Shown piece by piece: positions 8,437 through 46,404 of a stretch of DNA of 46,452 bases. How positions within the stretch are numbered: position 1 is the stretch's first letter; every line of letters begins with the position of its first letter. The position numbers and the translations under genes were made by a program. Source of the DNA: a virus; IMG/VR virus record IMGVR_UViG_3300002145_000035, positions 1 through 46,452 of that record. One strand, written 5' to 3'. The notes under the pieces were generated by a model. The model searched no databases. It was not told where the DNA came from and was given only the letters and a program-made list of their open reading frames with translations.

Positions 8437-10626
8437 TTATTCCACCATTTTATAATATTCAATTTCTTTAATTTCTATACTAACAAGTATGTCGTTGTCT
8501 TGTATTTCTTGAGGTTTAACTTCGATTAGATCGCCTTGTCTTTCTACCATTATGCTATGATCTTCTGTTACGGTAACAACATTTCCTAGCTCGTCTTCGA
8601 CTTCATAAAGTTGCTTATTTACAGAATGTTTATACACATAATTAATATGTCCGAAATACAGCTCGTCTCGGGTCTTATCGTATGACATTACCATAATATC
8701 AGAATCGAAGCCGTAATGTTTGTCATTAACCGAATCTTTTTGGTTGCATTGATTGTATAACTCTTCTATAGTCATTGGACCTTTTGAAGTTTCAATGATT
8801 GCATCACCTGTTAAACTGTCAGTATCGCCGTAGATGACTGCCCTGCCTATGTGGTTATACTCGCCTGTGATGATCTCATTCACCTTGGCGCTCATGTGCT
8901 TGACGATCTGACGACCGGTAAGCGTAGTTGACTGTCCGATGCGCTTATCAAAGAATCGACAGTGTGGATTTAGGATAGCGCCATATAGCGAGTTGAGGTT
9001 AATCTTCTTGACGAGCTGTCTCTTATCCCAGAACGCGATCTCAGTCTGGTTGCCAGCTTCGATAGCCTTGCGCATCTTGGCTTGCAGTTCTTTACGTTCG
9101 GAGTACCACCGCTTGAGTAGACCAGGAATGACAGCTTCGAACTCATAAGTGAAGATGGTGCCATTGGCACTTAGCATCCAAGGTTGATGGCTATCAAATA
9201 TCATCTGATAGATTTCTGCTGCGCTCATTATCTCTTCGCGGCCGTCCTCCCAATCAATGACGATATCCTTATCGCGCCGCTTCTCCATCACGTATTCGTA
9301 TTCTAGCGTACCGAACTTACCTTCCCATGCCGCAGCAAAAGATTTCTTCTGCAACAGCACCTGATCTTGGATGAAGGGATCAGTGTAGGTTGGACGAAGC
9401 TGACCAACGATTGCCTCTGGCGCCATGTTGAGCGCACGAATGACTGATGGATACAGTGAGTTCAAGTCCATTGATCCGACCCACATATGGACACCCTTCT
9501 TAGGGTACGCCACATATGCTCCGGCAGCGCCTTCGTTGCCATCTGTTTTGATCTTGTTTGGCACGACCATTCCTCGATCGTGTGCTTCGTTGATGATGGC
9601 TTGTTCGGTGACGGCTACTGCGCCCATGCCTGATTGCAGCAAGACAGTGTTAGCATGAGCCAGCTCATTCAGCAGTTCGATGAACTTTAGCTTCTTATCT
9701 AGCTTGTCAAGTAGTGCGACGTCTTGTCGGTTGTACTCAATGAACGTCCGGAAATCGTTGTTGTAGAGCTGATCAAGGGTGCCTTCGTAGACGGTCTTGT
9801 TCTCACCGATCTCAATTTCACCAATCGCGTCAAGGCGGTATGAATGCCTCTCTTCGTAGTTGTATTTCCGATATAGCTCAAGGCTATCAAGGTGTACGCG
9901 ACCTATGAGATCATATGTCTCGGCTTTCTTGCCGAACTTCTCATATTCGCGCTTGCGAGGTAATTGTCCCCATAGGCAGAATCTCCTCGTATCATCCTTG
10001 CTTAGGACTCTTGCTACGCGATTGACTGTATATGGAATATCATAACCTTCGCTGTTCCATCCGGTGATGATGTCTGCATCTTCGATCAAGTCAAGGAATG
10101 CCTTGAGCATGTCGCCTTCGTCAGCGTAAAGGTAGGTGTTTGGAAACTCTTTTACTTGCTCCTCAGCTTCTTCCATCGTGAGTGTCTTTGGAGGAACGGC
10201 AAGCGTGACGAGTGCATCCATCCATTGGAGGTGGACGGTGATGGCAGTGATCGGCATGAACGGATCGCTTGGTTGTGCGAATCCACGTTCTGGATCAAAG
10301 TCAGTCTCGATGTCAAAGAACGCCACATTCAGTGTCGGGGCGTCAATGTTGAGATAGTTCTCGCTCAAGCACTGCGTGACCGGATTGATATCCGATTCAA
10401 AGAGTGTCTTGTCTCTGTTGATGGCAAGTTCCTTGCGGAACTCCTTGGTGCTCTTACAGACGATCCGAGAAACAGGATCACCATATACGCTTCTGTGTTT
10501 ACCGGCTGGATCGGAATGATAGAAAGTATATTTTACCGGATATTCGTGGAATACACGCTTGCCTTCTCTGCGCTCAACTACACGGATTATGTCCGCTTCT
10601 CTGACAAATATTGCATCCACATACAT
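8437..10626 (-). CDS. 43: DNA polymerase gp43, N-terminal part with N-intein
   Basis: Residues 1-603 are the N-extein of a family B replicative polymerase like T4 gp43. They contain exonuclease motif I FFDIETDFD (Asp105, Glu107), exo II in NSEGYDIPY, exo III YNRQDVALL, polymerase motif A MDLNSLYPSVIR, motif B KINLNSLYGAI and the start of motif C, YGDTD. From Ser604 to the stop (126 residues) it is an N-intein half: SLTGDAIIET is block A and VTVTEDHSIM is block B with the TxxH motif. With the C-part the exteins add to 887 residues, against 898 in T4. ATG 10626 follows AAGGA about 12 bases upstream. Confidence 0.9.
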   Translation of the reverse strand: MYVDAIFVREADIIRVVERREGKRVFHEYPVKYTFYHSDPAGKHRSVYGDPVSRIVCKSTKEFRKELAINRDKTLFESDINPVTQCLSENYLNIDAPTLNVAFFDIETDFDPERGFAQPSDPFMPITAITVHLQWMDALVTLAVPPKTLTMEEAEEQVKEFPNTYLYADEGDMLKAFLDLIEDADIITGWNSEGYDIPYTVNRVARVLSKDDTRRFCLWGQLPRKREYEKFGKKAETYDLIGRVHLDSLELYRKYNYEERHSYRLDAIGEIEIGENKTVYEGTLDQLYNNDFRTFIEYNRQDVALLDKLDKKLKFIELLNELAHANTVLLQSGMGAVAVTEQAIINEAHDRGMVVPNKIKTDGNEGAAGAYVAYPKKGVHMWVGSMDLNSLYPSVIRALNMAPEAIVGQLRPTYTDPFIQDQVLLQKKSFAAAWEGKFGTLEYEYVMEKRRDKDIVIDWEDGREEIMSAAEIYQMIFDSHQPWMLSANGTIFTYEFEAVIPGLLKRWYSERKELQAKMRKAIEAGNQTEIAFWDKRQLVKKINLNSLYGAILNPHCRFFDKRIGQSTTLTGRQIVKHMSAKVNEIITGEYNHIGRAVIYGDTDSLTGDAIIETSKGPMTIEELYNQCNQKDSVNDKHYGFDSDIMVMSYDKTRDELYFGHINYVYKHSVNKQLYEVEDELGNVVTVTEDHSIMVERQGDLIEVKPQEIQDNDILVSIEIKEIEYYKMVE
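8440..8817 (-). other. N-terminal half of split intein (126 aa)
   Basis: The half begins with Ser directly after YGDTD in the polymerase active site and includes block A (SLTGDAII) and block B (TEDH). It ends in a TAA at 8439-8437, directly followed in frame by the ATG of the C-half. No endonuclease domain is present in either half. The insertion point is the conserved pol-c position used by several archaeal and viral polymerase inteins. The base composition is AT-rich compared with the exteins. Confidence 0.88.
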
Positions 10627-10645
10627 TTTTTTTGTTTTCCTTTTT

Positions 10646-10653
10646 GATAAATA
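10646..10653 (+). promoter_or_regulatory. Late-type promoter octamer GATAAATA (plus strand)
   Basis: GATAAATA lies 36 bases before the start codon of the plus-strand homing endonuclease. A T4-type late start about 6 bases downstream would give a leader of about 30 bases that includes the AGGA-like site at 10677-10680. Confidence 0.4.
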
Positions 10654-10667
10654 TTTTGTACGTTAAC
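10649..10667 (-). repeat. Left arm of inverted repeat flanking the homing endonuclease
   Basis: Read on the minus strand this is GTTAACGTACAAAATATTT. It matches the plus-strand sequence at 11405-11423 (GTCAACGTACAAAAATTTC) at 13 of the first 14 positions. The two arms enclose the plus-strand endonuclease gene almost exactly. Confidence 0.6.
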
Positions 10668-10669
10668 TC

Positions 10670-10689
10670 TATTTATAGGACTATAAATA
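10670..10689. promoter_or_regulatory. Palindrome with TATAAATA on both strands
   Basis: TATTTATAG (10670-10678), GA, CTATAAATA (10681-10689) is a perfect 9-base inverted repeat. Each arm is a perfect T4 late promoter octamer TATAAATA, one on each strand, so it could act as a divergent late promoter. The plus-strand octamer touches the ATG at 10690, so its transcript would begin inside the gene. The minus-strand octamer lies 44 bases before the gp43 start. The hairpin it would form in RNA could also hide the AGGA at 10677-10680. Confidence 0.5.
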
Positions 10690-11403
10690 ATGACTAAACA
10701 TTTTAGAACTAAAAATATTAGGTTTCTTAATTGGGTGTCTACTTGTAATGAAGTTCACAATCAAGCATATAATTACTCTGAAGTAATTTACGAAAATCAA
10801 AGGACAAAGGTAAAAATTATATGTCCTTATCATGGATCTTTTCTTCAAAAACCAAAAGATCATAAGATAGGACAAGGATGTCCTGAATGTTCTCATAATT
10901 TTCCTCTTACTGAAAACGAGTTTAAAAAAAGAAGTAGAGAAATGTATAATAATAAATTTACTCTTAATAGTAAGTTTATTGGCATGAAACACCCTGTTAC
11001 TTTAGAATGTGTTAAACACGGTCTCTTTATTTTGTCTTTAGCCGAAACACATTTTAGAAAGAATGGCGGTTGTCCAAAATGTTGGTATAATCTAAGAATA
11101 TCAAATTTAAAGCCAGGAAACGTTTCTAAAAAAGAAAAAGAATGGCTTGACACTTTAAATGTTCCTGTTCGACAAGAAGAAATCAATATTGGCACAAAAA
11201 AGTTCATAGTTGATGGATTTGATCCTACTACTAATACTGTGTATGAGTACAATGGATCATATTGGCACGGAAATCCAAATATATATAAACGAGATGACAT
11301 TAACACTGTTCTTGGGGTTACCTTTGGTGAATTATACCAGAAGACGTTAGAGAGAGAAACTCTCATTAAAAAACATTACAACTTGGTAGTCTTATGGGGA
11401 TAG
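10690..11403 (+). CDS. Free-standing homing endonuclease, zinc-finger plus Vsr-like
   Basis: This 237-residue protein has two zinc-finger-like repeats, Cys45-His48-Cys64-Cys67 and Cys107-His110-Cys128-Cys131 (pattern CPYHG...GCPEC), followed by a nuclease domain with Asp175 in VDGFDP and EYNGSYWHG at 186-194. This matches the Vsr-related (EDxHD) homing endonucleases described with split-intein genes in phage metagenomes. It would cut intein- or insert-free alleles so that repair copies the element. It is antisense to every neighbour, AT-rich (16 G+C in a hand-counted 60 bases at 10741-10800), and sits between the polymerase and dsbA blocks. AGGA lies 9 bases before ATG 10690. Its target is not known. 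Confidence 0.82.
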   Translation: MTKHFRTKNIRFLNWVSTCNEVHNQAYNYSEVIYENQRTKVKIICPYHGSFLQKPKDHKIGQGCPECSHNFPLTENEFKKRSREMYNNKFTLNSKFIGMKHPVTLECVKHGLFILSLAETHFRKNGGCPKCWYNLRISNLKPGNVSKKEKEWLDTLNVPVRQEEINIGTKKFIVDGFDPTTNTVYEYNGSYWHGNPNIYKRDDINTVLGVTFGELYQKTLERETLIKKHYNLVVLWG

Positions 11404-11404
11404 C

Positions 11405-11423
11405 GTCAACGTACAAAAATTTC
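11405..11423 (+). repeat. Right arm of inverted repeat flanking the homing endonuclease
   Basis: GTCAACGTACAAAAATTTC follows the endonuclease stop codon (11401-11403) by one base and mirrors the left arm at 10649-10667. Without the endonuclease segment the two arms would fold into a stem-loop between the small gene at 11427 and gp43. Confidence 0.6.
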
Positions 11424-11426
11424 TCC

Positions 11427-11684
11427 TTATTTCGTCATGAAGTATCTCGTCACATCCTTGTCGTTGATGATGAGCAGATCTTCTGGGTACTTATCGGTGG
11501 TACCCCCAGCCCAAGAACGGTATTGTGTTTCCGTCCGTGCAGGCTTCACCTTTATCATTTTGGGATTAATCTTCTCAACTGAGCAGATCCGGAGATCTCG
11601 AGTGCCAAAAGGGGCAACCACGAAATCTCCGACCTTGAGTTCTCTGTCTAGCTTGTCTTTATGCGTTGGTAGTTCCTTGGTCAT
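11427..11684 (-). CDS. Small beta-rich conserved protein (85 aa), unknown
   Basis: An 85-residue protein with RELKVGDFVVAPFGTRDLRICSVEKI in two pieces around residues 14-39, a pattern of small beta-barrel folds such as KOW or SH3-like domains, followed by KMIKVKPARTE. I recall similar small proteins in cyanophage-type T4 relatives, with no function. ATG 11684 overlaps the dsbA stop (ATGA), so it is probably the second gene of the dsbA transcript. Confidence 0.6.
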   Translation of the reverse strand: MTKELPTHKDKLDRELKVGDFVVAPFGTRDLRICSVEKINPKMIKVKPARTETQYRSWAGGTTDKYPEDLLIINDKDVTRYFMTK

Positions 11685-11941
11685 TGATCCTTGCCGACAG
11701 TCACGACGATCGTTTCGAGATCTTCAAACTCATCCTGATGCTTCTCCCAATCGCGCTTATAGGCGATCTTGATAGCCTTCTTGATGAGTGCCGGTTTAAC
11801 TTCAAGCTCTTCAGCTACTGCTTTGATGGTCTCATTCAGACCTTCGTTGAGATCTTCGATCTCCTGTAGGACGGTTACGCCCTCGTTGACCAGCCTTTCT
11901 AGCTTGGCCTTTTCTTCTGTGCCATAGGTGCGGTTAGACAT
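11681..11941 (-). CDS. dsbA: DsbA-like double-stranded DNA-binding protein
   Basis: This 86-residue helical protein matches my recollection of T4 DsbA (89 aa): a KAKLERLVNEGVTVLQEIEDL-type first helix, LNETIKAVAEELEVKPALIKKA in the middle and an acidic end. DsbA binds double-stranded DNA and takes part in late transcription in T4. It has an excellent sigma70 promoter and a GGAG site 7-8 bases before ATG 11941. The identification rests on memory of the family and on length, not on a catalytic motif. Confidence 0.65.
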   Translation of the reverse strand: MSNRTYGTEEKAKLERLVNEGVTVLQEIEDLNEGLNETIKAVAEELEVKPALIKKAIKIAYKRDWEKHQDEFEDLETIVVTVGKDQ

Positions 11942-11964
11942 GCACTTCTCCTTATTGTCTGCAG

Positions 11965-11993
11965 ATTATACTGCAAAAACAATGACTTGTCAA
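11965..11993 (-). promoter_or_regulatory. Consensus sigma70 promoter for dsbA
   Basis: TTGACA (11993-11988), 17 bases, TATAAT (11970-11965): both boxes are perfect consensus at ideal spacing, the best promoter in the window. Transcription would start near 11958, 17 bases before the dsbA ATG. It overlaps the last codons of the gene at 11997 by none or one base, so it sits in a 55-base gap. Confidence 0.85.
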
Positions 11994-11996
11994 GTC

Positions 11997-12596
11997 TTAT
12001 TTGGTGAATGCACCTATTCGGCCATGTATGTCAGGATATTCTCGATAGGTATATCCTAGTGGAGGAGTAGTATCTTGTCCCTCCCATACGGGAATAAAAT
12101 GTTCATTTACACCGATAAAATCTGTATTCCTGCGTAGATGGATCTCGATCAGCTTACCGCCGATGTATTCACAGTTAATCCATTCATACTTATGCTTAAT
12201 ATCTTCTATGATACTCGGAAGTGAGATCTTGTCATCCACGATGCGCCAGTCATCCCAATGTGTGAAAGTGTTTTCTTTTTTAAAACCTTCGACTGCAAGG
12301 ACTTGTTTTCCGTGATGATAATCGACGCTTACGTGCCTGCCTTTGAAGAATTCACACCAAAAGAAACCTAACGGTAAGTGCATCGTCTCTTCTTCGATAT
12401 ATAGCTTTTCTGCACCCATGCCTAAGCCTAGCATGTTAACACAAGGCCGGACTATATACGTCCCTGCTTTTGGCACATCCATTCCAGTTGGGCCACAAAT
12501 ATAGCCCATCTTCCGAGAAAGTATGAGCTTGTCCATGATCCAAATATCGTTTGGACTTATAGTAGTCCAAACGATATCTTCTGCATGATCTTCCAT
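11997..12596 (-). CDS. Conserved unknown protein, possible ATP-grasp-like fold
   Basis: A 199-residue soluble protein that I remember as a conserved unknown of T4-like phages. It opens with SPNDIWIMDKLILSRKMGY, has GTYIVRPCVNMLGLG around residues 45-59, which recalls the Lys/Arg-Pro strand of ATP-grasp enzymes, and later VSVDYHHGKQVLAVEGF. No complete nucleotide-binding set can be shown, so the fold is only a suggestion. ATG 12596 shares a base with the TAA that ends the -1 frame extension of the upstream gene. No promoter is seen directly upstream. Confidence 0.6.
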   Translation of the reverse strand: MEDHAEDIVWTTISPNDIWIMDKLILSRKMGYICGPTGMDVPKAGTYIVRPCVNMLGLGMGAEKLYIEEETMHLPLGFFWCEFFKGRHVSVDYHHGKQVLAVEGFKKENTFTHWDDWRIVDDKISLPSIIEDIKHKYEWINCEYIGGKLIEIHLRRNTDFIGVNEHFIPVWEGQDTTPPLGYTYREYPDIHGRIGAFTK

Positions 12597-12874
12597 TATC
12601 TTTTAGATGGTACCATTACCCAAGTTTCTTTTCCGTCTGGGGATTTAGTCTTTTTAGCAATTCCATAACCGCGTTTTTTGTAATCTCTAAATTCTTTCTC
12701 AAGGTATCTAGAAGTACCAGACTTAATTATAGTGCCCCTTGGCCATTGCGGATCACGTCTTTCAATTTCTGGATAAGGTTCTACGGCTTCTGATTTTACT
12801 TTAACGCAGACATCTTTGCCGTTTTTGGTGCCGTTATAACGGTACCCGTCCCAACACGCTTTTCCGTTGCTACC
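12596..12874 (-). CDS. -1 frame C-terminal extension of the 12796-14067 gene
   Basis: From 12874 an open frame without its own start encodes 92 residues (GSNGKACWDGYRYNG..., then a basic tail) and stops with TAA at 12598-12596, sharing a base with the next ATG. That junction style is the rule in this operon, while the 0-frame gene stops 200 bases earlier. KACWDGY-type motifs recur in unknown phage virion proteins that I remember. I read it as the true C-terminus of the upstream protein, reached by -1 ribosomal frameshifting or, if one A was lost from the run at 12875-12883, by ordinary translation. The fusion would have 490 residues. Confidence 0.65.
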   Translation of the reverse strand, partial: GSNGKACWDGYRYNGTKNGKDVCVKVKSEAVEPYPEIERRDPQWPRGTIIKSGTSRYLEKEFRDYKKRGYGIAKKTKSPDGKETWVMVPSKR

Positions 12875-14067
12875 TTTTTTTTTGATTCCGTATTCATACC
12901 ATACTCTTTTTCAAGTGCTGCTAGAATTTCTTCTTCTTCTGGTTCGTTATTGTCTTTTACATAGTCGTATAACTTTTTACCACCGTATAATGCAGCTAGA
13001 ACTGCTGCGGTAGGAATTCCGTATCTTACAATAACTTTTGCTAAATTAGGAATAAGTGCTTCGTCTAATCCTAACTCCTTTAAAAAGTCCATTGCGTCAG
13101 TTACAGTATCCCATACTTCGTATGCACCGTAAGCAGCTAATGACTTACCTGGATTTTTAACTACAATTTTTCCTGTTACAACTGCGGCCTTGCTTGTATT
13201 GTTAGCAACTTGTTTTGCAACTTGTTTAGCACCTTGCGTTGATAATAAACGTCCAACTACAGGTGCACCTAAACGTACTGCTGCTGCTAGTGCTGGAATA
13301 AGCAAAGGAAATGCTTCGTTTAATTGCGCTTCTTCCACAGTAACTTTACCTCGGGCAGCTTTCTTATTTTGTGCCGCCTTGGATTTAGTGCTTGCACCGT
13401 GTGCGCCTGCACCAGGACGTAACTTAGCAGCAACAGCATTTGGATCACGAGGTTTAGCAGGACCGCCTGCGGACGGCTTTTGTGCTTGCTGCGCACCGCT
13501 TTTTTGCTTTTTCTTTGCCATCTCAGCAAGACGTTCGCTAAGTGAATCCTTGTATTCGTCACCACCAGCATCACGTGCCTGCCTGACACGCTCTCTCTGT
13601 TCCATCTTGACAGCCATGCTTGCTGCCTCGTAATCCATGTGATGATAGACGGCATCTAGATAATCTGCTGCCTTGGTGATCTTAGCTTGGATCCAAGATT
13701 CGAGATCCGTGTTCGGATCGATACGGCTCATCATCTCATGTAGCTTGATGGCGTACTTCGCAATCTTGTATAGGTCTGAGCGAGCCATCTGAACCTCATG
13801 GTCTTTTTCGGCTGCATGAGCCATGGATCCTAGCCCTTCATTGACCTTGTTGTTTTCGTCTGACATGGTCGCTTCCTTCTTCATGCCCGCTTTTATCTTT
13901 TTCTTCTTGTTGTCGCCAGTGAACACACCTTTCACCCAATCTGCTGCGGCATCAGGAGCGAGCGGCCCATCCTTCTGGGTCGACCTAAAACCGCGCTGAA
14001 AAGCATTAGGCCCGTCGGCCTTCTGCTTGTGTTTCGGTACATACTTTTTCTTCTCAACAACTCTCAT
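12796..14067 (-). CDS. Late virion-type protein with frameshift site (0-frame 423 aa)
   Basis: A basic protein with several regions: a Lys-rich N-terminus, a helical block SDLYKIAKYAIKLHEMM...WIQAKITKAADYLDAVYHHMDYE at about residues 95-147, which recurs in cyanophage-type virion unknowns, an Ala/Lys/Pro-rich linker (about 180-250), and hydrophobic amphipathic segments AFPLLIPALAAAVRL and IPTAAVLAALYGG. A LNE site at about 253-255 resembles cleavage sites of T4 prohead protease gp21. The start is uncertain: ATG 14067 lies 4 bases past a late octamer, while ATG 13866 has AAGGA at good spacing. After codon 398 a slippery run leads to the 92-residue extension; the 0-frame tail has 25 unrelated residues. 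Confidence 0.6.
   Translation of the reverse strand: MRVVEKKKYVPKHKQKADGPNAFQRGFRSTQKDGPLAPDAAADWVKGVFTGDNKKKKIKAGMKKEATMSDENNKVNEGLGSMAHAAEKDHEVQMARSDLYKIAKYAIKLHEMMSRIDPNTDLESWIQAKITKAADYLDAVYHHMDYEAASMAVKMEQRERVRQARDAGGDEYKDSLSERLAEMAKKKQKSGAQQAQKPSAGGPAKPRDPNAVAAKLRPGAGAHGASTKSKAAQNKKAARGKVTVEEAQLNEAFPLLIPALAAAVRLGAPVVGRLLSTQGAKQVAKQVANNTSKAAVVTGKIVVKNPGKSLAAYGAYEVWDTVTDAMDFLKELGLDEALIPNLAKVIVRYGIPTAAVLAALYGGKKLYDYVKDNNEPEEEEILAALEKEYGMNTESKKKVATEKRVGTGTVITAPKTAKMSALK
12874..12885 (-). other. Slippery heptamer A-AAA-AAG in an A9 run
   Basis: On the minus strand the in-frame codons TCA AAA AAA AAG are followed by GTA. The heptamer A AAA AAG is the sequence used in E. coli dnaX. Slipping back one base gives GGT AGC AAC, opening the 92-residue extension. 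The palindrome CCGTTATAACGG lies about 27 bases downstream, which is further than the usual stimulator spacing, so an indel in the homopolymer is a real alternative. Confidence 0.55.
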
Positions 14068-14071
14068 ATCG

Positions 14072-14079
14072 TATTTATC
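14072..14079 (-). promoter_or_regulatory. Late-type promoter octamer GATAAATA
   Basis: GATAAATA differs from the T4 late octamer only in the first base. It ends 4 bases before ATG 14067, so a transcript starting about 6 bases past it would be leaderless for that ATG or would use ATG 13866. It lies in the gap between the ParB-like gene and the frameshift gene. Confidence 0.55.
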
Positions 14080-14081
14080 GA

Positions 14082-14579
14082 TTATTCGTAATAGTCTTCT
14101 TCAAGATTGTCGTAGTCAACTATGTTGGTTGAAACAACTTTCTCACCTCTTAATAATGCTGCCATTAACGCATGATGTCCGTCTAAGACGATAAGATGAC
14201 CTGCGAGCTTTGCTACTCGTATAGGTTTGCTAGTTGCGAGCTTTTGTTTGAGTACTTTCTCGTCTTCAATGCGAACAAATGGCTGACTGGCTTGTAGCTT
14301 GTTGACGGGAGTTTGTTCACGAGTGGTATATTTTTTAAATATCTTTTCTCGTTCTGCTCGACCATATTTTGTATCTAACGATTTTACCAAATGCCAGTTT
14401 AATCCGTCTATTTCATCAGCCCAATCTTCGTCGTAACTCTTTAAAGGAATATATTTGCCTTTTACTGTATCGCTTTTGTGATATCCATAATCGTCTTCTT
14501 TTCCATAACGACGTCCTGTCCTTGCTGCTAGTTTAGCCGGATCAACTTTTCGTTCTACAAAGAATTCTTGGAATCTCAT
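14082..14579 (-). CDS. ParB/Srx-like protein with putative capsid-targeting N-terminus
   Basis: A 165-residue protein. Its C-terminal part has the ParB/sulfiredoxin-like core: PIRVAKLAGHLIVLDGHH-ALMAALLRGEK, with Asp133-Gly-His135-His136 matching the DGHHR motif that binds nucleotide or DNA in ParB-like nucleases. The N-terminus MRFQEFFVE-R is close to the T4 internal protein leader MKTYQEFIAE, which directs proteins into the prohead and is removed by gp21. It could therefore be packaged and injected; this is inference. DNA is AT-rich relative to its neighbours. ATG 14579 shares a base with the TAA of the next gene. Confidence 0.65.
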   Translation of the reverse strand: MRFQEFFVERKVDPAKLAARTGRRYGKEDDYGYHKSDTVKGKYIPLKSYDEDWADEIDGLNWHLVKSLDTKYGRAEREKIFKKYTTREQTPVNKLQASQPFVRIEDEKVLKQKLATSKPIRVAKLAGHLIVLDGHHALMAALLRGEKVVSTNIVDYDNLEEDYYE

Positions 14580-15130
14580 TATCTTTTAATTTTGCCGCCG
14601 CCCATTAGGTTGTCGCCTGTGTCGAGCGCGTTCTTTGCGGTTCCGTTCTTATTTTTCTTCTGCTTCTTGCTCTTCGCGCCTGGGTTAGCAACAGTAGCAA
14701 CGGCTCCGGCCCCAGTACCTCCGGCTGTAGCGGTCTCGGTCACGTCTAGCTGCTCAATGGCAAATACTTTGTTTGGTGTAGAGAAGTTTGGTTTCTTCAT
14801 CACCGTCTTGGCGATGAGGTCGAGCTCTTGATTTTGCTCATCCCATACTAGCTTGAATGGGACGTTCACATCGGTGCGTAGGTCCTTCATGACACCTTGT
14901 GCCTCCGGACCCATCTGTGCGATCGGTTTACCCCATTGCTTTGCTTCCTGTTTGAATAGACGGATGAGTTCTGCCGAGGTGATCATAGCATCTCGGGTAC
15001 GCAACCTATCAAGGAAATGTCTGGTGAAATTTACGTCGATGCCAACTTTGGCAAACACTCGGTCGGCAAATGCTTCGATTTGATTGATGTTGATGACTTC
15101 CTCTCTGAGGAAGAGTTCTCTTAGTTTCAA
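14579..15130 (-). CDS. Conserved phage protein with putative capsid-targeting N-terminus
   Basis: A 183-residue protein of unknown function. Its core, VNFTRHFLDRLRTRDAM followed by ITSAELIRLFKQEAKQWGK and PFKLVWDEQNQELDLIAKTV, recurs in marine T4-like phages and has the size and order of a small beta-plus-helix RelE/BrnT-like fold, though I cannot show that. The N-terminus MKLRELFLRE-E looks like a capsid-targeting leader with an L-R-E cleavage site. The C-terminal 45 residues are Gly/Ala/Lys-rich and disordered. The start is TTG at 15130, overlapping the TGA of the upstream gene by four bases. Confidence 0.6.
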   Translation of the reverse strand: MKLRELFLREEVININQIEAFADRVFAKVGIDVNFTRHFLDRLRTRDAMITSAELIRLFKQEAKQWGKPIAQMGPEAQGVMKDLRTDVNVPFKLVWDEQNQELDLIAKTVMKKPNFSTPNKVFAIEQLDVTETATAGGTGAGAVATVANPGAKSKKQKKNKNGTAKNALDTGDNLMGGGKIKR

Positions 15131-15336
15131 CGGCGTCTTCCACGGAAGCCGTTTGATGCAGTCATTCCTGGAAGGCTAAACCAAAGATCAAACCATTCCG
15201 GGTCTCCTGGTTTGATACCTAGTGCCCTCTCTCGTTGCTTTAGCTCAGTTGAGGTAAATGAGAAGTTCTCAGTGACCGGCTTGCCCTTGTATTCATGTAC
15301 TCCTGCTAGTCGCTTCAGGATCTCAATGTCATCCAT
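15127..15336 (-). CDS. Small conserved protein (69 aa), unknown
   Basis: A 69-residue protein that starts MDDIEILKRLAGV, contains LKQRERALGIKPGDPEWFDLWFSL and ends in a basic GFRGRRR tail. It has no known domain. The 8-base overlap with the nucleotidyltransferase and 4-base overlap with the next gene support that it is real. Its position among putative capsid cargo genes suggests a structural role, but nothing proves it. Confidence 0.55.
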   Translation of the reverse strand: MDDIEILKRLAGVHEYKGKPVTENFSFTSTELKQRERALGIKPGDPEWFDLWFSLPGMTASNGFRGRRR

Positions 15337-16093
15337 TACCCATCCTTTTCTCGTATTTCTTTACGAGATTTTGTACGAATCGATTTGACAGATTATATGT
15401 CTGTGCGGCAACACTGATGCCATCCTGCATGGCCATTTGCACGATTTTATCGTGCGATGCACGATTGATTGCTATCTGTTTCACTTTGTCTTTCAACTGG
15501 TCAATAGTGAGTTCGGTGAGACCCATTCCAGATCTCACCGCCTCATATAGTGCTTCGGAAAACATGATTTCCGGAACTCCGTCTACGAAATCGTCAAAGT
15601 TTTCGTTCAATGCTGCTTCGCGCATTTTGCTTGCACTGGCGCCTTCGGCACCATCTGCATCGGGGTCGCGCTCGCCTGCGCTGACCACCGTGATTGATTC
15701 AAATGTATAGGGTATCACACCCTTCTTGTCTGGCTGTCCGTTATATGCGTTAAACATCTGTTCGAATGCTTCAACGCGATCCGAGCCTGCTACATAGATG
15801 ACTTTCTTGTAGCCCAACTCCTCTAACTTCTGTAGCATCTGGATCGGGGTTCGCACTTCTGGGTCACCTACAGTAACTCCTGGGAAGAACTGCTCTGCGA
15901 ACGCTAGTTTGGTTTCGAAAGCTAGCGGGTTATCCGGTAGCTTATGCGTTTGGCTGAGGAACAAGAAAGGGTCCCCGGGAAGAGACTGTACCTTCTCAAC
16001 CAGCTTCTTGTGACCGATCGTAGGTGGATTCATGCGGCCAAAAGCCACGACTGCCGTCTTGTTATCGTTCTCAAAAAGCTCGCGCACAAGCAT
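15329..16093 (-). CDS. Cytidylyltransferase-like nucleotidyltransferase, putative head cargo
   Basis: A 254-residue protein with the HxGH superfamily motif GRMNPPTIGH (residues 19-28; TIGH at 25-28), a long-range VIYVAGSDRVEAF strand and GASASKMREAA matching the ISSTxxR motif. These enzymes transfer nucleotidyl groups, for example in NMN adenylyltransferase, and some T4-like phages carry NadM/NadR-like versions. Residues beyond 195 are a helical tail typical of phage forms. The N-terminus MLVRELFE-N, directly before the enzymatic domain, resembles a capsid-targeting leader with an LxE cleavage site. The acceptor substrate is not predictable. Confidence 0.75.
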   Translation of the reverse strand: MLVRELFENDNKTAVVAFGRMNPPTIGHKKLVEKVQSLPGDPFLFLSQTHKLPDNPLAFETKLAFAEQFFPGVTVGDPEVRTPIQMLQKLEELGYKKVIYVAGSDRVEAFEQMFNAYNGQPDKKGVIPYTFESITVVSAGERDPDADGAEGASASKMREAALNENFDDFVDGVPEIMFSEALYEAVRSGMGLTELTIDQLKDKVKQIAINRASHDKIVQMAMQDGISVAAQTYNLSNRFVQNLVKKYEKRMGNG

Positions 16094-16094
16094 A

Positions 16095-16433
16095 TCAGTA
16101 TTCGCCTTTCCTAAGTTCTGCCTCTTCCTCAGCGAAGATCATCTCTATAATACTAGCTCTGTCCTCGTCTGTAAAGACTTCATTAGGCTTGCGATTGATC
16201 TTATACTTCCGCATATACATCGGAATTGCTTGATCAACGAGTGAAGAAAGTGACTCTTTCTTCAGCTTCTTCTTCTTGCGATAACCGTCGCACATCTCCG
16301 CCATCTTTGGGTAATAGTGTTGGCGGTAGAATCCAGGGTCATTCCTCATGTAAACTATGAGGTCATCACGAACGTCAAAGTCTAAGCCTTTGTCGTGATC
16401 CATGCCAAACCCCATCTCAGTTAATTTTACCAT
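16095..16433 (-). CDS. Conserved unknown protein (112 aa)
   Basis: A 112-residue basic and acidic helical protein with DVRDDLIVYMRNDPGFYRQHYYPKM split around residues 20-44, a motif that I recall from conserved unknowns in T4-like marine phages, and a C-terminal helix rich in Glu. It has no enzyme motif. ATG 16433 has AGGA about 10 bases upstream. The gap to the nucleotidyltransferase is one base, so they are co-transcribed. Confidence 0.6.
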   Translation of the reverse strand: MVKLTEMGFGMDHDKGLDFDVRDDLIVYMRNDPGFYRQHYYPKMAEMCDGYRKKKKLKKESLSSLVDQAIPMYMRKYKINRKPNEVFTDEDRASIIEMIFAEEEAELRKGEY

Positions 16434-16484
16434 TATCTTATTTCCTGTAAATATTTAGTTGTTCTATATAGATAATATAATTCA

Positions 16485-17078
16485 TCACCAGGCCCTACAA
16501 CTCCAGTACCGAGCAGATGTTCTAGGTCCTGGATTATCACAGTTGTGTCTTGCACGGAATGAGCGTCTACGTGCAGGATTTGATTTTTTAATCTTCATGT
16601 TAGGATCGCCAAAGTTAACTTTAACGACATTACCTTTAGGATTCTTTACATATACTTTAAACTTTTTAACATCGCCACGCATTGGTTTGCCTAGTTTAAC
16701 TTTACGACCTTGATATTCTGCTTCGTCAATTTCGTCATCTTCGTTGAACCACAACTCTCCATAAGCCTCATAAAAATCATTACCGTCGTATGTTTCTTCG
16801 GTAGCATCTTCGTCGAATGAAGTATAGATATCAAAGTTTTCGTAGCCTGCATCAAATAGTTTATTAGCAAGTTCTTCAGCGAACCTATCAGATTCTATGA
16901 TGTTTAGCTCACGTCTTAATGATAATTGTATGATTGAATCACCTTCGTTAGTCACTCCGCTTTCAAAAAGACCTGCTCCTTCTAATAATTTTTGTGATGA
17001 TATATTGATCATCATCGCTTGCACTGATTGTTCATTTACTGTTTTAATAGGTATAATTACGCTGACAAAATGTTTCAT
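16485..17078 (-). CDS. Protein with conserved basic C-terminal domain of unknown function
   Basis: A 197-residue protein in two parts. Residues 1-120 are acidic with a ferredoxin-like strand/helix pattern (VSVIIPIKTVNE, then ELNIIESDRFAEELANKLF). Residues 128-197 are a basic domain with GRKVKLGKPMRGDVKKFKVY, a VNFGDPNMKIKKSNP stretch, a RARHNCDNPG centre and a YWSCRAW end. I recognise that domain from many phage and metagenome proteins annotated only as a domain of unknown function; the conserved Cys, His and Trp may bind metal. The gene is AT-rich. ATG 17078; a 51-base gap follows it. Confidence 0.65.
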   Translation of the reverse strand: MKHFVSVIIPIKTVNEQSVQAMMINISSQKLLEGAGLFESGVTNEGDSIIQLSLRRELNIIESDRFAEELANKLFDAGYENFDIYTSFDEDATEETYDGNDFYEAYGELWFNEDDEIDEAEYQGRKVKLGKPMRGDVKKFKVYVKNPKGNVVKVNFGDPNMKIKKSNPARRRSFRARHNCDNPGPRTSARYWSCRAW

Positions 17079-17087
17079 AGACTGTCC

Positions 17088-17450
17088 TTAATGATTGAGC
17101 AATATGTTTCGGATGCTACCGTCAGTCCAATCACTCACGTAAACACGGACCCAAACAAAGTTACCGGTGAAGTTGTAGATGAATCCACCGGTTGAATTGC
17201 TTCCTTCGCTGTCTGTGCTCGTGTGTGTCGGACCAGAGACGGTAAACCAATCATCATCAGTTGGCGCCAAGGCCAAAGATGCTTGCATCTGGATGGTTCC
17301 ATTGAACCCTGTGAGGTTGTATTGGACCGTATGCAAACCGTCTGCTCGTCCGTAATAACCGTCACCCTTGTAGGCTGTGCCTGTCACAGTTTCTGTTGAA
17401 CTGTCACCCGGGTGTACTTGGTTAGTTAGAATAGTCTGGCTGTTTTCCAT
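17088..17450 (-). CDS. Beta-rich late protein (120 aa), possible virion component
   Basis: I choose ATG 17450 (MENSQTILTN) because the longer frame would overlap the upstream gene and because a late octamer ends five bases before it. The protein is almost all beta: GYYGRADGLHTVQYNLTGFNG, cut here near its Gly, then ASLALAPTDDDWFTVSG and FVWVRVYVSDW, the pattern of a jelly-roll or Ig-like sandwich as in phage head decoration or fibre proteins. No ribosome site is visible, so it may be translated from a leaderless late mRNA. Confidence 0.6.
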   Translation of the reverse strand: MENSQTILTNQVHPGDSSTETVTGTAYKGDGYYGRADGLHTVQYNLTGFNGTIQMQASLALAPTDDDWFTVSGPTHTSTDSEGSNSTGGFIYNFTGNFVWVRVYVSDWTDGSIRNILLNH

Positions 17451-17455
17451 GCAAA

Positions 17456-17463
17456 TATTTATC
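17456..17463 (-). promoter_or_regulatory. Late-type promoter octamer GATAAATA
   Basis: GATAAATA ends five bases before ATG 17450, so the predicted start of transcription falls at or next to the start codon. It lies within the end of the gene at 17470 upstream region and would drive the beta-rich protein and the following genes. Confidence 0.6.
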
Positions 17464-17469
17464 AAACAT

Positions 17470-18171
17470 TCACTTGTGCTCCAGCTCATACACTTTGTAG
17501 ATCTGATCCGGCGAAAGGCGCAAGTTTAGCAAGAACATCATCCTTTCATCGGACACATACAGTTGTGGATTGAACATGAAATTGTCCTTGCGTAGGTTGT
17601 TTGCTGCGTAATCTGATAGCATTAGCTTACCTTTGTTGGCCGCGATCCAATCAGGAAAATCAGGATCTCTTACTGCTCGCAAGACCACTTTGTACTGGAA
17701 CTTGGAATACTTTTCAGAAACGATCAGTTTTCCATCCATTAGTGCTTCAATGTCGTCAAGATCTGGTTCTGTTAGATCGACGCAGATGTGTGGAACAGCT
17801 TTGATCAAGGCATCTATGACTTTCCGATCGGTGTCATACACCATGAGAGTGGTGCGCTCACGACGTATCGTATGTTCCTCCTTAAGGTGTTCTTGTAGGA
17901 CTGCCTTGATGGCGAGAGCATCGACATATTCACCGTATGATATCTCGATCTCTCGCCAATAAGGTTTGATGACGGCTACGCTATCTACGTCAAGGTGTTT
18001 CTTCCTCTTGAACTTATTCTCCAATTCCTCCGTGAGCTTTTTGAACTCACGGAGTCTTGGAAAGTCAAACCAGCGTGACATGGTAGTGTCAATGTTAAGC
18101 CTATACGGGTATTTCTCGTAATAGAGCTTCTTAGTCTTGTATTTCTTCAAACGGAGCCTCGTGTACCACAT
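17470..18171 (-). CDS. Conserved unknown protein (233 aa)
   Basis: A 233-residue soluble protein, basic at the N-terminus (WYTRLRLKKYKTKKLYYEKYPYRLN) and mixed alpha/beta after it. It ends in a helical stretch LRLSPDQIYKVYELEHK. I recall similar proteins in T4-like phages but no function. ATG 18171 is used; a TTG three bases earlier is also possible. The first 41 bases overlap the clpA end in another frame, longer than usual here, so the start is less certain. Confidence 0.6.
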   Translation of the reverse strand: MWYTRLRLKKYKTKKLYYEKYPYRLNIDTTMSRWFDFPRLREFKKLTEELENKFKRKKHLDVDSVAVIKPYWREIEISYGEYVDALAIKAVLQEHLKEEHTIRRERTTLMVYDTDRKVIDALIKAVPHICVDLTEPDLDDIEALMDGKLIVSEKYSKFQYKVVLRAVRDPDFPDWIAANKGKLMLSDYAANNLRKDNFMFNPQLYVSDERMMFLLNLRLSPDQIYKVYELEHK

Positions 18172-20383
18172 CAAATTCTAGATTACCATCATGTGCATTG
18201 ATGGTAATCGTGCCGCCGTTCTTGAGATTGCCAAACAGCATCTCCTTGGCAAGCGGCTTCTTGATCTCGTCGTTTATCACACGCTTCAACGGACGAGCGC
18301 CAAACTTAGGATGGAAGCCTTTCTCGACCAGGTAGTCAAATGCTTCTCCGGTCATCTCGATCGTCACACCCTTGCTCTCGACTTTAAGTTTCAGTTCTCG
18401 CATGAACTTACCAACGATCTTGAGCATGATCTCCTTAGGCAGCTTGCCAAAGGTGATGATACCATCTAGCCTGTTACGGAACTCTGGACGGAAGAACTTG
18501 TCGAGCTCTTCGGTCGTATGCTCCTTCTCAAGGCTGACACCAAACCCGATGTTATGCTTCTCGGAATCTTGAGCACCGAGGTTAGTAGTGATGATGAGCG
18601 TGACATTACGGAAATCAGCTTCCTTGCCGTTTGATCCGGTCAGCTTGCCGTTGTCCATGATCTGCAACAGGATCTGTGCGATATCCGGGTGTGCTTTCTC
18701 AATCTCATCCAGTAGCAAGACACAGTTTGGATGTTCCTGCACTGACGTGATCAGCAAGCCCCTATTATCTTCGAAGCCAACATACCCTGGAGGCGAACCA
18801 ATCAGCTTAGAGATAGCATGTTTCTCCATGTATTCAGACATGTCGAAACGAATGAGCTTTGCACCAAGTTCTTCGGCAAGGGCCTTAGCCGTTTCTGTCT
18901 TACCGACGCCAGTTGGACCCATGAAGACGAATGCGCCGATTGGCTTATCGTCATCTTGCAGACCTGCTTGTGCGATGTGAACCTTGTCGGTCAGCGCATC
19001 AACGGCCTCGTCTTGTCCAAACACCTTGCTTTTGATGTTCTTGTTCAGGTTAGCGAGGTTCTCACTCTCCTTCTCGGCCACACGAGTTGGATCCATGCGT
19101 ACCATCTGTGAGAGTTCGTACTGGATGTTCTCTCGGTCCACGAACTTTCCTTCAGTCTGGTTGATCAGCTTGAATCGAGCGCATGCCACATCAATCAGAT
19201 CAATTGCCTTGTCAGGCAGCTTCTTGTCAGGCTGATACTTGACAGACAGCTTGACAGCTTCTCGTACAGCCTCATCCGTGATCTGTGCGTTGTGGTATTC
19301 TTCGTAGTACGGTTTGATTGAGATTAGGATCTCTTCTGCCTGTTCCGGAGTCGGTTCGTCCACCGTGACACGCTGGAAGCGCCTCATCAAGGCACGGTCC
19401 TTCTCGAAATACTTGCGATATTCTTCCCAAGTCGTAGAGGCGACCACCTTGACATCACCTTTGCCTAGTGCAGGCTTCAGCATGTTTGCTAGGTCGTTTG
19501 CATTGTTAGATGAGCCCGAACCAGCGCCACTGATCATGTGTGCTTCGTCGATGAACAAGACACACTTGCCTTTCTTCACGATAGCATTGAGCACCGCCTT
19601 GAAACGCTCCTCAAAGTCGCCTCGGTACTTGGATCCTGCCAGCATTGCTGAGATGTCCAAGTTGTAGACTTCGTATTCCTTGAGGAACTCAGGTACTGTG
19701 CCCTGCACGATGTTGAAGGCAAGACCTTCAACGATGGCCGTCTTACCGACACCTGGATCACCAACAAGTATCACGTTGCTTTTGTTACGTCGACCGAGCG
19801 CAAGCGCGATCTTATCAAGCTCAGGATTGCGAGCGATGACGGGATCGATCTTCTTTTGCTTGACCTTGCGGTTCAGGTTCTCGGTGAATGCCTTCAGTGC
19901 TTTCTGCTCGCCCTGAGTGATCTCTTCTTGTTCGATCGCTTCCTCGACTTCTGCATGTACGAATTCTGAGAATGATTTCTTGTCAACTCCTGCCTGTTCC
20001 AGGAAGTAGTAGCACATAGACTTCTTCTCAGCCATCATGCTGATGAGCACGTCGGTCAGCTCAATGGTACGTCCACCATTAAACAGAACCTGCGTGAACG
20101 CACGGTTGAGTACACGCTCAACCGTTTGTGTCTTCGTTGGCTTATATTTCTTGATGCTTGGATCGACCTTGATGTCATCCAGCTTGTCTTTCAGCATGTG
20201 CTGGAGATTGGTCTTGATGTATTGGACTTCTGCTCCATAGCCCTTGAGCAGCTTTGAAAAGTTCTCCTCTTCTAGCATCGCGAAGAGCAAATGCTCTAGC
20301 GTCACGTATTGGTGTCTGTTCTTGTTTGCAAGAGCTACTGCATTTTCAAATATCGTAGATAGCTCTTTAGATGGTTCTACCAT
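18131..20383 (-). CDS. clpA: ClpA-type AAA+ unfoldase
   Basis: This 750-residue protein has the full ClpA layout: an N-terminal repeat domain (residues 1-145) where ClpS or substrates bind, AAA+ domain 1 with Walker A GDPGVGKT (208-215) and Walker B LFIDE (276-280), and AAA+ domain 2 with GPTGVGKT (489-496), LLLDE (556-560) and an arginine-rich FRNRLD sensor region. NIGFG at 611-615 gives the IGF tripeptide that docks on ClpP. It lacks the long middle domain of ClpB. It would feed proteins to the host ClpP, since no clpP is seen here. It has a good sigma70 promoter and AAGGAG before ATG 20383. Confidence 0.95.
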   Translation of the reverse strand: MVEPSKELSTIFENAVALANKNRHQYVTLEHLLFAMLEEENFSKLLKGYGAEVQYIKTNLQHMLKDKLDDIKVDPSIKKYKPTKTQTVERVLNRAFTQVLFNGGRTIELTDVLISMMAEKKSMCYYFLEQAGVDKKSFSEFVHAEVEEAIEQEEITQGEQKALKAFTENLNRKVKQKKIDPVIARNPELDKIALALGRRNKSNVILVGDPGVGKTAIVEGLAFNIVQGTVPEFLKEYEVYNLDISAMLAGSKYRGDFEERFKAVLNAIVKKGKCVLFIDEAHMISGAGSGSSNNANDLANMLKPALGKGDVKVVASTTWEEYRKYFEKDRALMRRFQRVTVDEPTPEQAEEILISIKPYYEEYHNAQITDEAVREAVKLSVKYQPDKKLPDKAIDLIDVACARFKLINQTEGKFVDRENIQYELSQMVRMDPTRVAEKESENLANLNKNIKSKVFGQDEAVDALTDKVHIAQAGLQDDDKPIGAFVFMGPTGVGKTETAKALAEELGAKLIRFDMSEYMEKHAISKLIGSPPGYVGFEDNRGLLITSVQEHPNCVLLLDEIEKAHPDIAQILLQIMDNGKLTGSNGKEADFRNVTLIITTNLGAQDSEKHNIGFGVSLEKEHTTEELDKFFRPEFRNRLDGIITFGKLPKEIMLKIVGKFMRELKLKVESKGVTIEMTGEAFDYLVEKGFHPKFGARPLKRVINDEIKKPLAKEMLFGNLKNGGTITINAHDGNLEFDVVHEAPFEEIQD

Positions 20384-20412
20384 GGAGGCACTCCTTTGTT
20401 ATTGTTGCACTT

Positions 20413-20441
20413 ATTTTACGTGAAGATCTCAGTAAAGTCAA
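20413..20441 (-). promoter_or_regulatory. Sigma70-type promoter for clpA
   Basis: TTGACT (20441-20436), 17 bases, TAAAAT (20418-20413): one mismatch in each box at ideal spacing. The -35 box overlaps the stop region of dnaJ. Transcription would begin near 20406, leaving a leader of about 22 bases with AAGGAG at 20396-20391. Confidence 0.7.
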
Positions 20442-21286
20442 TGACTTAACTCTTCTTTAAGCGCACGTAATTTTTCAAGCAGCTCGGTTGATTGTATCTT
20501 TGGAATGTCTGCATTGACACAAACCAACAATCTTCCTCGTACTTGATTATTTACGTTTGGCATGCCATGGCCGGTCACACCAAAAAGAGTGCCTGATTTG
20601 GTACCAACAGGTATCTTGATCTTCACGTTTTTCTTTTCAAGGGTAGTGACGTAAGCATCACACCCGGTTATCATGTCAAGAGCATCGACGTTGATTGAAG
20701 TGATCAAGTCGTCTCCTTGTCTCTCCCAGTTGCGCTCTGGTGTGATGACCACCTTGACGAAGAGGTCACCACGTTGCGCTCCTTGTATTCCTTCATCTCC
20801 GAGACCAGGGTAACGCATGGTCGTGTTCTCATGCACACCAGGTGGTATCCGGATGTTCACTGTCTCTGTGCGACCCGTCCGTAGGCGATAGTTAGCAATC
20901 AGTTCCTTGCCTTCTATTGCTTCTGCAAGGCTGATGCTTGCTGCGATGGTTATGTCGGGGTTGCGCATGGCATGACCACGTGCTCCTCCGGCGCCGCGCA
21001 TCATCTCTGCAAAGAGATCGTCTATGTTGACGGTGCGGGTATAGATGTCATAATGGAAGCCACCACGGTGCCCACCACCTATACCACCACCAAAAGGGTT
21101 TGGGTTGTCGTACTCCGCTCTCTTTTTTGGATCTTTGAGCGTATCGTAAGCTTCGCCGATTTCCTTGAATTTTGCCTCATTGCCACCGGCATCAGGATGA
21201 TGTTTAGCTGCTAGTTTCCGGAATGCTGCTTTGATCTCATCTTGCGTGGCCGATTTCGAGACTCCGAGTGTCTTGTAATGGTCCAT
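20438..21286 (-). CDS. DnaJ/CbpA-type co-chaperone
   Basis: A 282-residue J protein: J domain with HPD at residues 30-32, a Gly/Phe-rich region (PNPFGGG...HRGGF, about 67-80), then two DnaJ C-terminal beta domains (GVHENTTMRYPGLGDEG, PVGTKSGTLFGVTGHGMP). There is no CxxCxGxG zinc domain, so it resembles CbpA rather than DnaJ. It stimulates the ATPase of the host DnaK and can present substrates. The gene lies directly after the holin gene (8-base gap) and before clpA, so a phage may use J protein and ClpA together on host or phage proteins. Confidence 0.93.
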   Translation of the reverse strand: MDHYKTLGVSKSATQDEIKAAFRKLAAKHHPDAGGNEAKFKEIGEAYDTLKDPKKRAEYDNPNPFGGGIGGGHRGGFHYDIYTRTVNIDDLFAEMMRGAGGARGHAMRNPDITIAASISLAEAIEGKELIANYRLRTGRTETVNIRIPPGVHENTTMRYPGLGDEGIQGAQRGDLFVKVVITPERNWERQGDDLITSINVDALDMITGCDAYVTTLEKKNVKIKIPVGTKSGTLFGVTGHGMPNVNNQVRGRLLVCVNADIPKIQSTELLEKLRALKEELSH

Positions 21287-21294
21287 GTAGCTAC

Positions 21295-21741
21295 TTATTC
21301 GTCTGGGTTCTTACGTCTTCCAGAGCCGACGTAAAGACCGAACCAGGCGGCGCCTGCACCTACTATTATAGACACTAATCCAGATTGTTCAAGAGATAAA
21401 TTCTCTACTTCCATGGCCCATAGCACGACTTCGTACAATAGGTAGATGTAAACGGAGATGAAGATACGAGGAAATATGCGCCATGAATCAACTGCACGCG
21501 CAAGATGTATGATGTTCTTGAAAGGATTGACACCGAGATCCTTGACAGAGGTATCTACCTCAAGGTCTAGCTTGACTTTCTTGGTAACTCCTTGTTCGTC
21601 CATCTCAACCACGACGCCTGCGTCGTAATCGTGATCTTCGTAGACGATAGTTTCAGGCGTGGTGTCGGCCCTTGGACGCGGACGCCTGCGCGGCGTCGGC
21701 TCTTCGTACGGCTCGACATCCTCTGGTTTTCTCCTAGGCAT
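21295..21741 (-). CDS. Putative holin-like two-helix membrane protein
   Basis: The first 60 residues are polar, Pro/Arg/Asp-rich and probably cytoplasmic. Two membrane segments follow at about 89-110 (FPRIFISVYIYLLYEVVLW) and 120-138 (SGLVSIIVGAGAAWFGLYV), then a short basic tail. The size, topology and place beside a lipoprotein spanin, an inner spanin and an endolysin suggest a holin; I recall like proteins in cyanophage-type T4 relatives. The typical T4 holin gpt is different, so this call is from context. A late octamer GATAAATA and GGGAGGG precede ATG 21741. Confidence 0.6.
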   Translation of the reverse strand: MPRRKPEDVEPYEEPTPRRRPRPRADTTPETIVYEDHDYDAGVVVEMDEQGVTKKVKLDLEVDTSVKDLGVNPFKNIIHLARAVDSWRIFPRIFISVYIYLLYEVVLWAMEVENLSLEQSGLVSIIVGAGAAWFGLYVGSGRRKNPDE

Positions 21742-21760
21742 CGAACCCTCCCTCTAATCA

Positions 21761-21768
21761 TATTTATC
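21761..21768 (-). promoter_or_regulatory. Late-type promoter octamer GATAAATA (holin)
   Basis: The octamer ends 19 bases before ATG 21741. A transcript starting about 6 bases downstream would keep the GGGAGGG ribosome site. It overlaps the last codons of the lipoprotein gene. Confidence 0.65.
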
Positions 21769-22213
21769 AGAAGGGCTTGATCTTGTTCCAGAAGCTTCCG
21801 TTTTCTTCTTGTACTTGACGATTGACGTCTGATGCGTTACTCTGTGCATCGTCGAGTGCCTGCTCTGCTTGCTTGTAGTAACGCTCGTAGGCAGCTATGA
21901 TCGTGCGCTGCTGCTGGATATAAGCACGCACATCGCTGAGATTAAGTGCTAGTCGTTCGTAACCTTCATCCGTGAGACCGAACAGCACAAGGTCTTTGTT
22001 TTCGCCCTTGAGGCGTGCGAAAACTTCTTCGTAGTTCTCAGGAGTGATCACGACCCATTGCACATCTCGCATGTTGAGTTGATCTGCAGATGGTAATACG
22101 AGCTCTGGGCGCTCAACCGGCTTCGCTGAGATCTCTAGCTTGCAAGGATTAGCGCAACCTGCTAGAGCCAGGATTACCAGGCCACAGCCAAGGGCATTTA
22201 TTATTCTTGACAT
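21767..22213 (-). CDS. Lipoprotein, putative outer-membrane spanin (Rz1-like)
   Basis: A 148-residue secreted lipoprotein: a short positive start, hydrophobic LVILALAGC with lipobox Cys20, then a soluble region with ELVLPSADQLNMRDVQWVVITPENYEEVF and a helical, probably coiled-coil C-terminus (IQQQRTIIAAYERYYKQAEQALDDA). The o-spanin role is inferred from the lipobox and from the inner-spanin-like and endolysin genes nearby. It is larger than phage lambda Rz1. Its ATG at 22213 overlaps the end of the homing endonuclease by 13 bases. Confidence 0.6.
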   Translation of the reverse strand: MSRIINALGCGLVILALAGCANPCKLEISAKPVERPELVLPSADQLNMRDVQWVVITPENYEEVFARLKGENKDLVLFGLTDEGYERLALNLSDVRAYIQQQRTIIAAYERYYKQAEQALDDAQSNASDVNRQVQEENGSFWNKIKPF

Positions 22214-46396: not shown

Positions 46397-46404
46397 TATT
46401 TATA
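46397..46404 (-). promoter_or_regulatory. T4-type late promoter octamer TATAAATA
   Basis: This perfect TATAAATA lies 16 bases before ATG 46380, with AGGAGGA between. It would drive the Fe-S carrier and the fibre gene. Confidence 0.75.

Follow-up and report, generated by a model that had tools for sequence, protein, structure and literature searches.

Three of four consecutive genes in a fragment of an uncultured T4-like phage encode proteins with unrelated bodies and a common N-terminal leader pattern, which raises the question of what the leader does. The fragment, referred to here as the window, is the 46,452-base IMG/VR virus record IMGVR_UViG_3300002145_000035. It encodes a family-B DNA polymerase, clamp loader, PhoH, dCMP deaminase, thymidylate synthase, MazG, spanins, and endolysin, a T4-like gene content, and is without head genes. 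No DNA-level matches to positions 10,000-22,000 were found among the phages of the annotated collection, and PADLOC returned one weak match. In T4, the leader of an internal protein binds the core, gp21 cleaves it, and the protein is ejected. The considerations below indicate that P1, P2, and P4 are probably capsid cargo of a T4-like myovirus, with their leaders serving as capsid targeting sequences.

The genes P4, P3, P2, and P1 follow one another on the minus strand, with start and stop codons that touch or overlap. The three leaders described in the initial annotation, MRFQEFFVE-R, MKLRELFLRE-E, and MLVRELFE-N, were found at the N-termini claimed for them. P4 (15329..16093, minus strand) starts with ATG at 16093 and encodes 254 residues, in which the leader MLVRELFE (16070..16093, minus strand) stands shortly before strand 1 of a HIGH-superfamily adenylyltransferase-like domain and forms a low-confidence part of the predicted model. 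Between P4 and P2 lies P3 (15127..15336, minus strand), whose 69-residue product is without a leader; a P3 homologue comes directly after P4 in almost every close relative. P2 (14579..15130, minus strand) encodes 183 residues from a TTG start at 15130, which overlaps the P3 stop and has GGAAG six bases upstream. Its leader, MKLRELFLRE (15101..15130, minus strand; next residue E), is followed by a conserved domain that corresponds to the C-terminal part of phrog_23027 and contains the motif DVNFTRHFLDR. P1 (14082..14579, minus strand; ATG start at 14579) encodes 165 residues, comprising the leader MRFQEFFVE (14553..14579, minus strand) and a putative ParB-like domain with a DGHH motif. The leaders end in FVE (P1), LRE (P2), and LFE (P4), putative cut motifs of the L/I-x-E type.

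Compared with a T4-type leader of about 10 residues having hydrophobic residues at 4, 7, and 8 and glutamate at 10, P1 agreed strictly, and P2 and P4 agreed with shifted spacing. Leaders were searched with a strict pattern, R1 (M, one to three residues, F/Y/L, two residues, F/Y/L, F/I/L/M/V, one residue, E), and a looser pattern, R2, both tuned by eye and written after some of these sequences had been viewed. The initial annotation had proposed looking for the same leader elsewhere in the genome. Among the 56 gene-like ORFs of the window, R1 matched P1 alone, and R2 recovered P2 and P4 together with the N-terminal half of the DNA polymerase and one internal start. On its own, the window offers a cluster of weak matches, and the evidence gains strength only from the relatives.

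At least 593 relatives of the P4 nucleotidyltransferase domain occur in IMG/VR. The 80 loci that were fetched yielded 63 distinct N-termini whose start codon lies 8-45 residues ahead of the FGRxNPPTxGH motif. R1 was matched by 26 of the 63 and R1 or R2 by 46, against shuffled expectations of 0.2 and 1.3, respectively; MINSFKNYLVEEEKTVYFTFGRMNPP, MKKFSKFLTEGKDKGAVFTFGRFNPP, and MRLRQLFESPRTAVMAFGRMNPP are examples of such starts. At four loci (L051, L070, L088, and L110) the nucleotidyltransferase begins almost at the domain, and the leader is therefore an add-on that the fold does not need. The leader MHLRELFLKE before the nucleotidyltransferases of L054 and L057 is almost identical to that of P2, although the bodies differ. 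Over all gene starts of the fetched relatives, R1 matched 124 of 1,456 (6.3 when shuffled), and 96 genes remained against the same 6.3 once the nucleotidyltransferase genes were excluded; in these counts, the ORFs are metagenomic and their start codons guessed, orthologues lack independence, and the rate is that of this neighborhood rather than of whole genomes, since the loci were fetched for P2 and P4 homologues. Inside proteins, a comparable motif was found near chance, with four matches (two distinct) versus 1.6 shuffled. The leader-bearing bodies included a CCA-adding enzyme, DnaJ, NT5C nucleotidase, ParB-like proteins, and DUF6267 with a nucleotidyltransferase, and MKLREIFEN precedes a pterin-4a-carbinolamine dehydratase domain. 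The leader is thus portable between unrelated bodies and strictly N-terminal. At 8859-9632 (plus strand) of the L096 contig, a leader-bearing ParB-like protein runs in frame into a second unit starting KMKSFKQLTEAVTG, an arrangement that a merger of two cargo genes would produce.

Examination of the 15 closest relatives (L035-L049) revealed a common gene order, in which a long chaperone-like gene (MVEPS...), conserved genes, P5, P4, and P3 are followed by variable genes, a homologue of the window gene at 12796, and then the polymerase. In the window, P5 (16095..16433, minus strand) is a conserved gene at the upstream border, and its stop codon adjoins the P4 start. The gene following P1 (12796..14067, minus strand) encodes 423 residues; its homologues carry an EGLGxxAxxAEKDHEVQMARSDLYK block, and KVNE-GLG within it is a possible processing site. 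Variable genes of the relatives open with MKISELLNED, MKLREIFENG, MKIYEIVTET, MKVHDLVNEA, and similar sequences. A post hoc pattern, R3, matched 21 of 93 of the other island genes compared to 2 of 85 upstream genes (P = 3e-5), a count that excludes the P1, P2, and P4 homologues and has a shuffled expectation of 0.13. R2 gave no separation between island and upstream genes, since the members of an upstream family open with MEHFVRIVMEK. A position-weight matrix scored with one family left out at a time was uninformative, with shared domains placing 65 of 109 island genes in a single family, and pattern counts with shuffles were therefore used. The P1-P4 cassette forms an end of a variable island of probable cargo genes, located between the conserved chaperone block and the DNA polymerase. 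The cargo cassette proposed in the initial annotation thus understated the case: the island is larger, and the leaders of the relatives stand on many more enzyme types. The polymerase of the window (7321-10626, minus strand) is encoded by two ORFs that divide it at the YGDTDS motif. An intein-like N part closes the first ORF, an intein-like C part ending LVHN-S opens the second, and this is probably a naturally split intein.

We then considered the bodies. P4 carries the motifs NPPTIGH (HxGH-type) and SASKMR (S-x-S-x-x-R), in the arrangement GRMNPPTIGH ... SASKMR. A profile search of P4 against the PDB gave no match, but a fold search did: Foldseek with the P4 model returned PPAT/CoaD first (E = 2e-6), with NadD below. 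The model had a pLDDT of 54 over the first ten residues and about 90 over the domain. By its motifs and predicted fold, P4 belongs to the HIGH-superfamily nucleotidyltransferases, with a Rossmann-like, PPAT/NadD-like fold, which bears out the earlier description of a nucleotidyltransferase whose domain comes directly after the leader. Membership in this superfamily implies that the product is likely an adenylylated cofactor, a CoA or NAD precursor. Our guess is that P4 might provide NAD early in infection or act against an NAD-depleting defense.

The ParB-like character first assigned to P1 is plausible at low confidence. A PHROG match (E = 0.002) and the DGHH motif are consistent with it, whereas the match to Pfam ParBc_2 fell under the cut-off; an hhalign comparison with the ParB_N-like L096 group gave E = 8e-5 at a probability of 61%. 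A search of viral contigs with P1 returned no relatives. The sole close homologue, L046, was met in the P4 neighborhood and is 49% identical over the whole protein. Its leader, MKIRDILDE, occupies the same place, sharing only M1 and E9 with that of P1, but with charged and hydrophobic residues arranged alike.

The AlphaFold model of P2 was unusable (pLDDT 43), and with this failure a guess at a BECR/DUF4258-like nuclease was dropped. Several stand-alone P2 homologues open with the leader-like MINFKDFINEE, MKSFKQFTISE, or MKTFKQYIILE. Where the homologous domain stands behind another (L004, L005, and L045), the match begins only at about residue 13, past the leader; L005 is a fusion of leader, nucleotidyltransferase, and P2 domain. 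In proteins of the L008 type, the P2 domain lies within fusions that are without a leader.

Published virion proteomes of three cyanomyoviruses, unequal in depth, were used to determine whether R1 proteins are found in virions. For S-CREM2, with 52 virion proteins (PMC10665884), five of six R1 proteins were in the virion versus 52 of 219 proteins overall (P = 0.003), namely a SAM hydrolase, an APH-like kinase, a cytidylyltransferase, and two hypotheticals. The corresponding values were one of three for S-SZBM1 (PMC9146016) and one of four for S-SCSM1 (PMC9602691), neither of which is an enrichment alone. Pooling the three proteomes placed 7 of 13 R1 proteins in virions, with 2.5 expected (P = 0.005). 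The P4 homologues detected in virions all bear leaders: MKNFSSFLTEA in S-CREM2, MRFRQFIIEA in S-SZBM1, and MKSFLQFLKEA in S-SCSM1. In the portions of the S-CREM2 and S-SCSM1 papers seen, the authors proposed carriage of these enzymes by the virion and gave no targeting mechanism (PMC10665884, PMC9602691), and a full-text literature search for 'capsid targeting' with 'cyanophage' turned up only a review.

Several further observations concern these phages. Five consecutive virion-detected genes of S-SCSM1 (86357-91835, ORF89-93) include the NMNAT-like gene, which alone among them has a clear N-terminal leader; many virion-detected neighbors are without one. S-SZBM1_191 (MKSFKSFLSESVNISG) and the similar S-SCSM1 ORF30 (MKTFKQFMSESVNISG) are small proteins with strict leaders that were undetected in virions. 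A Cas9-like virion protein of S-CREM2 (7704-10313, minus strand) has the leader-like LRFASFMAEA at residues 17-26, and the codon before RFASF is CTG, which is not the annotated start.

A Peptidase_S77 prohead protease is present in S-CREM2, in Melnitz, and on the L096 contig. A protease search of the first seven relatives found none because these are fragments, and a later search with S-CREM2 as positive worked. The window and its closest relatives are likewise fragments lacking head genes, and a gp21 of this phage would lie outside the covered sequence.

The leaders resemble the capsid targeting sequence of T4 IPI, IPII, IPIII, and Alt in comprising about 10 N-terminal residues, hydrophobic near 4, 7, and 8, with a glutamate near 10, and, as with the T4 internal proteins, one leader is joined to unrelated bodies. 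In the T4 leader, residues 4 and 7 carry targeting and residues 8 and 10 processing (PMC9026906), and among T-even phages the leader is kept while the internal-protein bodies vary (PMC3012670, PMC9026906). Leaders in this clade follow an MKhxEhhxE scheme, nearer to those of T4 Alt and gp24 than to IPIII, and the residue after the proposed cut is R, E, or N, whereas A follows the IPII and IPIII leaders. The cargo also differs, being a nucleotidyltransferase, a ParB-like protein, and further domains carried by a variable island close to the DNA polymerase gene. As a control, R1 applied to the annotated starts of 150 kb of T4 matched IPII, IPIII, and gp61.1 only, missing IPI and Alt. The gp61.1 gene (record 18966-19130, minus strand) is annotated as hypothetical and opens with MKTFKEFIKEDMVAGD, a capsid-targeting-like leader; its product may be an unrecognized internal protein.

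Two other systems bear comparison. The NMNAT-like or cytidylyltransferase virion proteins of S-CREM2, S-SZBM1, and S-SCSM1 share with P4 a homologous domain, a leader, and detection in virions, but are longer, with an insert after the leader in S-CREM2 and S-SCSM1. Such a virion protein has been reported for S-CBWM1 also, and the parts of the papers on these proteins that were seen name no targeting sequence. The polyvalent proteins described in phages and conjugative elements, for which entry into the host along with the DNA has been proposed (Iyer et al. 2017, PMC5512222), likewise have shuffled enzymatic domains, as in the L005 fusion, but the proteins here are mostly single-domain and have a defined N-terminal tag. 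The T4-type leader reading of the initial annotation has thus held in that the leader is of the T4 internal-protein type, portable, and borne by homologous nucleotidyltransferases in published virions. Its placement of the genes among late-promoter genes found no support, as exact TATAAATA sites on the minus strand of the window occur only at 10677, in front of the DNA polymerase half, and at 46404, with none near the cassette.

Leaders of this kind might instead be docking tags for a scaffold or assembly protein, with their bearers acting as assembly factors or companions of the scaffold that undergo degradation or stay behind rather than being ejected. T4 gp24 (MAKINELLRES), gp2, and gp22 have similar first residues and are not of the internal-protein type, and S-SZBM1_191 and S-SCSM1 ORF30, undetected in virions, lie beside head genes. 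We nonetheless consider this unlikely, as the bodies are metabolic or nucleic-acid enzymes, several of them in mature virions.

Carry-over of an abundant late enzyme whose action is in the producing cell, named as possible in the S-SCSM1 proteome paper (PMC9602691), could also bring a nucleotidyltransferase into virions, and the N-terminal pattern would then be a helix specific to the fold. Unrelated folds bear the same pattern, however, some homologues are without the leader, the leader is a low-confidence part of the P4 model, and leader proteins are over-represented in virions; this explanation appears more improbable still. The least credible explanation is that three genes fit a loose hydrophobic-acidic pattern by chance. 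Within the window R1 does match only P1, and the loose R2 also matches the DNA polymerase, but across relatives the leader is kept at the same position despite little sequence identity, and the counts there are far over the shuffled expectation.

Capsid targeting by the leaders would therefore remain the preferred reading and appears well supported by homology. For this phage, we infer packaging, cleavage, ejection, and role by analogy. Late in infection, the first 8-10 residues of P1, P2, and P4 would bind the scaffold core, so that the protein becomes enclosed in the prohead. A prohead protease of the gp21 family would probably cut after the leader glutamate, freeing the enzyme, which could then exit the head together with the DNA when the phage next infects a cell. 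The bodies are interchangeable, here a HIGH-type adenylyltransferase, a ParB-like protein, and the P2 domain. The role would most likely be an early supply of adenylylated cofactor (NAD, CoA) or repair of defense damage.

Enzyme cargo represents a real and broad extension of the T4 internal-protein system. There is an even chance that across the T4-like superfamily, far beyond the T-even phages, one leader marks as capsid cargo a large, shifting repertoire of enzymes (adenylyltransferases, CCA-adding enzyme, deoxyribonucleotidase, DnaJ, ParB-like proteins, SAM hydrolase, and kinase) in dedicated islands, making the injected kit of uncultured phages predictable from sequence. Virions of marine T4-like phages hold unexplained enzymes, including NMNAT-like proteins, a SAM hydrolase, and a kinase, and a leader readable from sequence would account for the entry of several of them. 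Injected proteins would then be searchable in metagenomes, including those of many phages beyond cultivation, and the list of leader-bearing proteins would be one of candidate enzymes for early host takeover or counter-defense.
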